Below, in pieces: positions 28,650-30,674 of a DNA stretch of 33,851 nucleotides. Position numbers and translations under genes: made by a program. The first letter of the stretch is position 1, and each line of letters opens with the position of its first letter. The DNA lies in the NCBI GenBank assembly GCA_944350385.1, contig CALVOV010000011.1, positions 1-33,851 of the forward strand, read 5' to 3'. Origin of the DNA: an uncultured Bacilli bacterium. Its GTDB lineage: Bacteria > Bacillota_I > Bacilli_A > RF39 > UBA660. A model generated the notes under the pieces. It searched no databases and had not been told where the DNA came from. It saw only the letters and a program-made list of their open reading frames with translations.

Positions 28650-28680
28650 CTAGCCGTTAAGAAAAAAAGGAGGAGAAATC

Positions 28681-30114
28681 ATGAAAAAGAAAATAATTTT
28701 CTTAATAACATTATGTGCCATATTTTTAGGAATCAATAAAAATGTATATGCAGAAGAATCACGTTTCTATGAATCAGAATATGTACCTAATATTTGGATG
28801 AATAGAATACTAAGCACTAGACCAAATACTATTTATTATCAAACAGCAAGATTTTTTAGACAAAGTCAAACAGGTAAAGTATCATATTGTATTCAGCCAA
28901 CAAAACCATTTGATGAAAATGCAATATATACAAAAGTAGATATACCAAATAATCTTTCACAAGAACAAATGAATAGAATAAATGCTCTTGCTTACTATGG
29001 ATATAATTATAAAAATCATTCTGATAAAAAATGGTATGCTATCACTCAACTGCTTATTTGGAAAACAGCTGATCCACTAGGAGACTATTATTTTACAGAT
29101 ACATTAAGTGGAAATAGAATAGAAAGATTTACATCAGAAATAAATGAACTAAATTCAATGGTACAAAAACAAAATATCAAACCTAATTTTTCACAGAAAA
29201 AATTCATAATAAGAGAAGGAGAAACCTTAAAAGTAGTAGATTCAAACAATGCATTATCCAATTATGAAACTTCTTTAGGAAGAATTGAAAATAATAATAT
29301 AATTTTTGAAAATTTAAAAGAAGGAAATTACCATATAATAATAAAAAATAAAAATTATAATAACTATCAATATCCAGTAACATATTATCAATCAGATACG
29401 AGTCAGAACATGCTTATAACTGGAAATATTCCTGATGAAACATACATTGATATAGAAGTTATAAAAACAAAAATTAATATTACAAAAATTGATAAAGATA
29501 CTAAAGAAAGCACCCCACAAGGTTATGCATCTTTGAAAGATACTACATATAAACTTTATAATGAAAACAATGAAGAAATAAAAACTATAATAATAGATGA
29601 AAATGGAAAAGGTAGTGTAGAAAATTTAGACTTTGGAACTTATTATTTAAAAGAAACCAAACCTGGTAAAGGATATAATTTAGATGAAAGTAAATATAAA
29701 ATAACAATATCTAGTGATAATCCACAAGTAAGTTTAACATTAGAAAATGAAATAATAAAAAAAGAAATAATCATCCACAAAGTTTATGGTAATAATAATG
29801 AATTTTATCCAGAAGAAAATGTCATCTTTGAAATCTATGATAAAAATAAAAATTTAATTGATACTATAAAAACAGATAAAAATGGGCATGCTAAAACAAC
29901 ACTTATATATGGTGAATATACAATTAAACAAATAAATACTAAAGAAGGATATGCGAAAATTGAAAATAAAAATATCATTGTAGATAATAATAACAGGGAA
30001 ATCTATGAACTAACGGACTACAAAATAAATGTTCCAAACACATATATAAATTATTCTCCAATGCATAAAATAATCGATTTCATTCTTGAATATATAAATA
30101 TGTGTATATGTTAA
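28681..30114 (+). CDS. Secreted surface adhesin: Cys-Gln thioester domain plus two Cna-B/SpaA-type domains
   Basis: 477 residues. Signal peptide 1-24, probably cut after VYA. A thioester domain (about 30-160) shows Cys70 in VSYCIQP and Gln123 in AITQLLIW, the pair that forms an internal thioester able to bond covalently to host proteins. Then a spacer domain (170-258) and two Cna-B-like domains. Domain one (262-358) has Lys269 (NITKID), Glu325 (LKETKP) and Asn356 (LENE), suited to a stabilising isopeptide bond. Domain two (362-448) has Lys367 but Gln417 where Glu is usual, and Asp446. No LPxTG; the C-terminus is VPNTY (451-455), a weakly hydrophobic stretch and MCIC. The following sortase gene overlaps by 7 nt. 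Confidence 0.88.
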   Translation: MKKKIIFLITLCAIFLGINKNVYAEESRFYESEYVPNIWMNRILSTRPNTIYYQTARFFRQSQTGKVSYCIQPTKPFDENAIYTKVDIPNNLSQEQMNRINALAYYGYNYKNHSDKKWYAITQLLIWKTADPLGDYYFTDTLSGNRIERFTSEINELNSMVQKQNIKPNFSQKKFIIREGETLKVVDSNNALSNYETSLGRIENNNIIFENLKEGNYHIIIKNKNYNNYQYPVTYYQSDTSQNMLITGNIPDETYIDIEVIKTKINITKIDKDTKESTPQGYASLKDTTYKLYNENNEEIKTIIIDENGKGSVENLDFGTYYLKETKPGKGYNLDESKYKITISSDNPQVSLTLENEIIKKEIIIHKVYGNNNEFYPEENVIFEIYDKNKNLIDTIKTDKNGHAKTTLIYGEYTIKQINTKEGYAKIENKNIIVDNNNREIYELTDYKINVPNTYINYSPMHKIIDFILEYINMCIC

Positions 30115-30662
30115 AAAAAATATTAAAAATATTCTTAATATTATTATTCTTCTTAATTGCATGCTATAAAATTTATAATTCTGAAAATAGTAGAATAGAT
30201 AATCATTTAAAAAAATTAAAAATTAAAAATTCAGAAGAAATAATTGAAGAAGAAAAATTGATAGAAAAAAGCATTGGAAAAATTATCATAAAAAAGATTA
30301 ATTTAGAGAAACAATTATATAATATTGAAAGTTCAGAAAATAATGTTAATAAAAATATAACAATATTAAAAGGTAGTATAGAACCATCAGAGCATAATAG
30401 CATTATATTTATAGCAGCTCACTCTGGAACAGGAAAACTTGCTTATTTTAAAGATTTAGATAAATTAGAAAAAAATGATCAAATACAATTATTTTATAAA
30501 AATAAAAATTATTATTATCAAGTTACCAATAAATGGGAAACAAAAAAAGATGGTGATATTGAAATAACAAAAAGTGAAGGAAAACAATTAATCTTGACAA
30601 CATGTAGTCCAACTAATAAAGATAAACAATTAATTATTAATTGCATAGAAAAAGAGTCTTAA
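30108..30662 (+). CDS. Sortase-like transpeptidase, atypical active site
   Basis: 184 residues. N-terminal membrane helix (about 4-20), a charged linker and a sortase beta-barrel (about 55-180). Catalytic His105 in AAHSGTG and Cys166 in LILTTCSP are present. The usual Arg seven to nine residues after the cysteine is replaced: the stretch is NKDKQLII, so Lys173/Gln174 stand there. Sortases normally cleave a C-terminal motif of a surface protein and attach it to the wall or another subunit; the adhesin just upstream is the obvious substrate. ATG at 30108 overlaps the adhesin stop (ATGTTAA) and no clear ribosome binding site is seen, so translation is probably coupled. A GTG at 30102 would add two residues. 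Confidence 0.82.
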   Translation: MLKKILKIFLILLFFLIACYKIYNSENSRIDNHLKKLKIKNSEEIIEEEKLIEKSIGKIIIKKINLEKQLYNIESSENNVNKNITILKGSIEPSEHNSIIFIAAHSGTGKLAYFKDLDKLEKNDQIQLFYKNKNYYYQVTNKWETKKDGDIEITKSEGKQLILTTCSPTNKDKQLIINCIEKES

Positions 30663-30674
30663 GACTCTTTATTT
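30651..30674. terminator. Bidirectional terminator between sortase and S41 protease genes
   Basis: Perfect 20 bp palindrome AAAGAGTCTT/AAGACTCTTT at 30651-30670; functional hairpin AAAGAGTC-TTAA-GACTCTTT, with moderately T-rich tails. Confidence 0.75.

Follow-up and report, generated by a model that had tools for sequence, protein, structure and literature searches.

A thioester adhesin and its neighbouring sortase with Gln at the catalytic Arg position: a probable dedicated pair in an uncultured RF39 bacterium

The textbook catalytic set of sortases is His-Cys-Arg. A paper of May 2026 gives this set for all sortases (PMC13257024), and a literature search of open-licence papers found no description of natural sortases devoid of the Arg. 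The role of this residue is debated, being viewed either as a stabiliser of the oxyanion or as a holder of the substrate, and recent structural work calls for more tests of it (PMC9520033, PMC13104033). In SpySrtA, Arg216 bonds the carbonyls of P4 and P3 but is more than 6 Å away from that of P1, and Thr207 forms the oxyanion hole (PMC9520033). Replacement of the Arg by Ala abolishes the activity of SpySrtA (PMC9520033) and of F. alocis SrtA (PMC13257024). An engineered SrtA carrying R197S remains active (PMC13104033), so a sortase can work without the Arg. In parallel, the beta6/beta7 loop of pneumococcal SrtC was found to touch the middle residue of the sorting motif (PMC5640630).

The best sequence and fold matches of the sortase described here are class C and D enzymes (S. 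suis SrtC1 3re9, S. agalactiae SrtC1 4d7w, C. perfringens SrtD 4d70) and the class A SrtA of B. anthracis (2kw8), with which it has in common the beta-barrel fold, the His, the TLxTC motif and an N-terminal membrane helix. Unlike in these enzymes, the Arg is replaced by Gln, the beta6/beta7 loop contains Lys-x-Gly, and the partner has a VP[DN]T motif with a free P1' residue. The engineered S. aureus SrtA-beta (R197S, LMVGG-selective) resembles it in being active without the Arg and in having a changed substrate motif too (PMC13104033, PMC9520033), but that enzyme arose by directed evolution and has Ser, whereas the Gln lineage is natural, numbers more than 200 sequences and is tied to a resident partner. 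The adhesin is akin to TIE/TED adhesins (SaTIE 6fx6; 6fwv), in which a thioester domain with Cys and Gln is followed by Cna-B-like domains; in contrast to these, it has no LPxTG, ends in VPNT and a short non-basic stretch, and has its own sortase encoded alongside. Closest in setting are Arg-type RF39 pairs (L280, L282, L283, L300-L303, L315), found in the same bacteria with the same operon plan and Cna-B adhesin partners, yet with the Arg kept, no Lys-x-Gly and a partner motif of L/M/YPxT.

The window, that is the whole stretch of 33,851 nucleotides that was analysed, comes from a genome of 1,358,122 bases in 50 contigs. The gene order is fhs, adhesin, sortase and a convergent S41 protease gene, fhs and S41 being named by reading their translations. 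The features are as follows.

28668..28673, + strand: Shine-Dalgarno-like AGGAGG, 7 nt 5' of the adhesin ATG, read in the sequence
28681-30114, + strand: thioester adhesin of 477 aa (profile matches; AlphaFold2 mean pLDDT 90.1)
28882..29100, + strand: Pfam TED match by profile search, residues 68-140
28888..28890, + strand: Cys70, thioester Cys (74/74 homologues)
29047..29049, + strand: Gln123, thioester Gln (76/76 homologues)
29470..29751, + strand: first Cna-B/SpaA domain, residues 264-357 (Lys269 and Glu325 invariant; Asn356 in 72/76)
29758..30024, + strand: second Cna-B/SpaA domain, about residues 360-448 (Lys367 and Glu378 invariant)
30031..30042, + strand: VPNT sorting motif, residues 451-454 (Pro452 and Thr454 each in 76/76 homologous adhesins)
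30043..30111, + strand: 23-residue C-terminal segment with a predicted helix at 460-476, without basic tail, an end typical of the sub-type
30108..30662, + strand: Gln-type sortase of 184 aa, start ATG at 30108 (GTG at 30102 a possible alternative start)
30420..30422, + strand: His105, catalytic His (264/264 aligned sortases)
30546..30554, + strand: Lys147-x-Gly149 of the beta6/beta7 loop (211/215 Gln-type, 0/44 Arg-type)
30600..30602, + strand: Thr165, putative oxyanion-hole Thr (214/215 Gln-type; role from PMC9520033)
30603..30605, + strand: Cys166, nucleophile (264/264), in a TLxTC-like motif that reads LTTC in the window
30627..30629, + strand: Gln174 (CAA), occupying the site of the catalytic Arg where beta8 begins, from alignments
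30651-30670, + strand: terminator-like palindrome, lying between the sortase gene and the convergent S41 protease gene

The sortase ATG overlaps the adhesin stop by 7 nt, in agreement with the earlier note on this DNA. The same genome has two more adhesin/sortase pairs, located on contigs C7 and C1; their adhesins end in VPDTS and their sortases bear Gln. These pairs (L002, L003), like those of genus relatives, are followed by a co-directional gene whose membrane-protein product has about 290 or 190 aa; the window pair lacks this gene. On contig C24 of this genome (L009:1444-1725), a short sortase-like ORF of 93 aa (TCYNNSEKMVIHAKL), possibly a remnant, adjoins a surface-protein-like ORF with an NPKTF end.

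The adhesin consists of a signal peptide, a thioester domain, two Cna-B/SpaA domains, the VPNT sorting motif and a short hydrophobic end. It matched Pfam TED at 2.5e-9 (37.9 bits, above the cut-off of 22) and Pfam SpaA/Cna-B at 3.2e-25 over two stretches and, its fold being assessed by sequence comparison alone, it matched the solved SaTIE thioester domain 6fx6 (E 5e-11). With both the TED profile and the Cys...Gln pair present, the protein is assigned to the TED-type adhesins and the thioester bond is predicted. The Cys70/Gln123 pair lies where the earlier note had placed it and is kept throughout the homologues, the adhesin counts being taken over 76 adhesins that partner window-like sortases. 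Cna-B was rightly recognised there as well, in two stretches rather than the single domain described.

The adhesin ends in VPNTY-INYSPMHKIIDFILEYINMCIC, with neither Lys nor Arg in its last 10 residues. Judged by the LPxTG, hydrophobic segment and basic tail that define LPxTG surface proteins, it is not one of them. The end had been reported as VPNTY without LPxTG or basic tail, which is accurate except that a sorting motif, VP[DN]T, does exist. In window-like partners, a median of 19 residues follows VPxT, the last six residues are free of Lys and Arg in 44/77 and a final Cys is found in 24/77; the other Gln-type partners have a median of 31 residues, with Lys and Arg missing in 6/107. As the tail without basic residues recurs across the sub-type of the window, it is a trait of this sub-type and not a defect; judging from these sequences, it is specific to the sub-type that includes the window.

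The sortase combines an N-terminal membrane helix with a sortase fold. It matched Pfam Sortase (PF04203, peptidase C60) at 2.3e-15 with 56.9 bits (cut-off 26.6) and TIGR01076 with 47.7 bits (cut-off 39.35). Its AlphaFold2 model (pLDDT 86.8) shows the sortase beta-barrel fold and compares with 3re9 at VIA Z 17.6 and an rmsd of 2.3 over 128 residues; in this predicted structure Cys166 ends beta7 and Gln174 opens strand beta8. The NCBIfam class models gave 54.5 bits for class C (cut-off 160), 50.8 for class D (165), 54.4 for SrtD (140) and 28.4 for class E (160), so that the window sortase scores well under the cut-offs of classes C, D and E, and no NCBIfam model of class A, B or F appeared among its matches at E up to 1. 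By profile and predicted fold it is placed in the sortase superfamily as a homologue, not as a canonical His-Cys-Arg sortase: the third residue of the textbook triad is Gln174 instead of Arg, as it is Gln in 215 of 264 relatives.

The earlier claim that His105 and Cys166 are present and the usual Arg absent was thus confirmed, and the Arg position, within the stretch TCSPTNKDKQLIINC, is occupied by Gln174. An alignment artefact was ruled out by a MAFFT alignment of 264 sequences and by profile alignment to solved sortases. In the latter, Gln174 aligns with the Arg of B. anthracis SrtA (2kw8) and Lys147 falls on the Pro of the EPTDT loop in the class C sortase 24rr; C. perfringens SrtD was one residue off, no gap having been opened. 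The placement was also checked by eye (Q-L/T-I/V-I/Y at the start of beta8). An Arg elsewhere in the protein taking over was rejected as well, since no Arg is invariant in the family.

These features were found well beyond the window. All five genus relatives sampled have the sortase, with KQL[IV]IN and Gln, and the S41 gene is adjacent in each locus read; the adhesin end, readable in four of them, is always VPNT[YRN] and a short tail, the contig of the fifth (L023) stopping inside the sortase. At the family level, a profile search found such sortases in 106 of 145 sampled genomes, and 100 regions were fetched for comparison, plus loci from further searches. The Arg site is Gln in nearly all fetched family members. 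The sortase start and the stop of the upstream ORF overlap in 183/197 of the fetched cases, and 115/139 upstream ORFs end in [VIL]PxT, the residue after Thr being variable. No strong match outside the family of the window was found among the sampled genomes of the class (395) and phylum (392), and the remaining matches that were read carry Arg.

It had been considered that homologues might show LPxTG and Arg, the window being a decayed or frameshifted copy of such a pair. Nothing more than the odd ends themselves speaks for decay, and this origin, whose probability we regard as practically nil, is excluded by five genus orthologues and 76 homologous adhesins that share these features, Gln and VP[DN]T being kept. 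A lack of co-occurrence elsewhere had been named as a second refuting condition, but the two genes co-occur very widely. This co-occurrence, together with the conserved Gln and motif, supports the dedicated substrate/enzyme pair proposed in the earlier note; the odd features are real, but they are a trait of the entire lineage and not the peculiarity of one locus.

Among 23 divergent homologues, picked as less than 42% identical, His105, Gly107, Phe114, Tyr135, Tyr137, Lys147, Gly149, Thr165, Cys166 and Gln174 are invariant. SrtA mutants are inactive once the Arg is lost, which would suit a catalytically dead sortase serving as membrane chaperone or tether for the adhesin. Nevertheless, some loss would be expected in a dead enzyme, yet His and Cys are kept in all 264 sequences and the Thr preceding Cys in 214 of 215, and the Pro and Thr of the adhesin motif are invariant, and we hold this explanation to be very improbable. 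The Gln sortase is real and conserved, and is probably an active enzyme.

In one alignment of the 264 sortases, the Arg site is occupied by Gln in 215, Arg in 44, Tyr in 4 and His in 1, the Arg set taking in class C and D sortases of the ordinary LPxTG kind. L324 (TCSKTNSKIQEIYY), counted among the four with Tyr, may have a Gln that was shifted in the alignment. Arg-type sortases of the same family adjoin the same kind of Cna-B/thioester adhesin, but the partner motif is L/M/YPxT with them and VP[DN]T with the Gln sortases. P4 is Val in 173/191 with Gln versus 0/26 with Arg (Fisher 3.5e-22, on counts that are mostly inherited), and P2 is D/N in 167/191 with Lys147 versus 5/24 without it. A simple pattern mis-picked a few adhesin motifs (e.g. 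L054, L121), and re-scoring gave the same outcome. When all columns of the domain were ranked, 174, 149 and 147 separated Gln-type from Arg-type best; moreover, position 155 is Arg/Lys in the former and acidic in the latter.

The tree requires only 4 Gln/Arg changes, 2 of them forced by well-supported branches. Changes being so few, the contingency counts are largely inherited, and an independent-contrast test gave no significance, there being too few independent switches. Both types occur in single genomes (G105, G080, G078, G106, G007), so the switch follows the substrate and the wall cannot be its cause. The earlier suggestion of an altered recognition motif or anchoring chemistry is well supported for the motif, P4 being Val with Gln and L/M/Y with Arg, whereas the chemistry half found no support.

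Several neighbouring types were also observed. A few rare sortases in which Tyr occupies the Arg/Gln site (L157, L326, L328) have the unusual partner motifs VPNA, LPNTG and TPDT and could represent a further motif/enzyme step. Three Arg-type sortases near the Gln clade (L279, L281, L321) have partner ends of the form LPxL[YG] (LPDLY, LPQLY, LPFLG), in which Leu replaces the motif Thr. A second, class B-like sortase type (contig C23 L008/L358; L359-L374) carries TCTR[FYM], with Arg at Cys+2, and has N, T, E, K, D, S or Q at the usual pre-beta8 Arg site in the sequences read; this could be one more line in which the Arg was lost or moved. Finally, G003, of the same genus, has a class C pilus cluster of the ordinary kind, in which LPLTG and Arg sortases are found (L029/L030), which indicates that both systems can coexist.

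The covariation could also mean that another residue, most likely Lys147, performs the chemical function of the Arg in a rearranged catalytic set, the change of motif being secondary. The conservation of Lys147 comes close to that of the catalytic residues, its presence coincides almost exactly with absence of the Arg, and the basic position 155 of Gln-type enzymes points the same way. However, Lys147 aligns to a substrate-contacting loop position away from the oxyanion hole, and there is no invariant Arg in the family. Such a substitution, which overlaps largely with the best explanation, appears quite improbable.

The best reading of these sequences is a dedicated one-enzyme/one-substrate lineage in which replacement of the Arg would have gone together with changes of both beta6/beta7 loop and sorting motif. 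On balance, we lean towards natural and widespread His-Cys-Gln sortases that work without the Arg, the substrate-holding charge having moved to the Lys of the beta6/beta7 loop and the motif having co-evolved to VP[DN]T. The operon itself likely encodes one covalently displayed adhesin and its private sortase, with a Gln174/Lys147 mechanism and thioester adhesion. The adhesin would be exported and retained by its short hydrophobic end. The sortase would bind VPNT, and Cys166 would attack the Thr carbonyl with the help of His105, the oxyanion being held by Thr165 and backbone amides. Given that the canonical Arg contacts the P4/P3 carbonyls, that the Thr before Cys is kept and that the loop contacts the motif, Gln174 is proposed to replace Arg in backbone hydrogen bonds to these carbonyls; Lys147, in the place of the canonical Pro/Asp/Glu, may hold the P2 D/N side chain or otherwise provide the missing positive charge. 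Cleavage would take place between VPNT and Y, with transfer of the acyl group to a wall precursor, and the remaining chemistry would be as in other sortases. The mature adhesin may then bind a host or neighbour surface via its Cys70-Gln123 thioester.

RF39 genomes retain srtA/B and most peptidoglycan genes, and a peptidoglycan wall is predicted (PMC10868615), which makes a wall acceptor plausible. The short tail, which has no basic residues such as normal sorting signals carry, counts against this best explanation. The active Gln sortase could instead be mainly a protease or adhesin-to-adhesin ligase, which clips between VPNT and Y and releases or joins adhesins with no wall attachment. The same sequence evidence suits any thioacyl-forming sortase, the acceptor not being readable from sequence; the conserved short non-basic tail would hold the precursor weakly, and the closest solved folds are those of pilus class C sortases. 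On the contrary, in the loci read every sortase has a single adhesin as neighbour and no further pilin-like gene beside it, adhesins of the same kind are served by Arg-type relatives within the same genomes, and RF39 is predicted to keep its peptidoglycan wall (PMC10868615). A protease or ligase role is considered unlikely.

The Gln lineage amounts to a natural mutant experiment on the sortase Arg, in which Arg and Gln versions serve similar adhesins inside one cell. If the favoured explanation is true, the Arg would serve to recognise the substrate and would not be required for the chemistry. In addition, the VP[DN]T motif may be orthogonal to LPxTG, which would offer sortases for protein ligation. 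For the bacteria themselves, an uncultured gut lineage that is very common, the pair seems to be a major system of covalent display.
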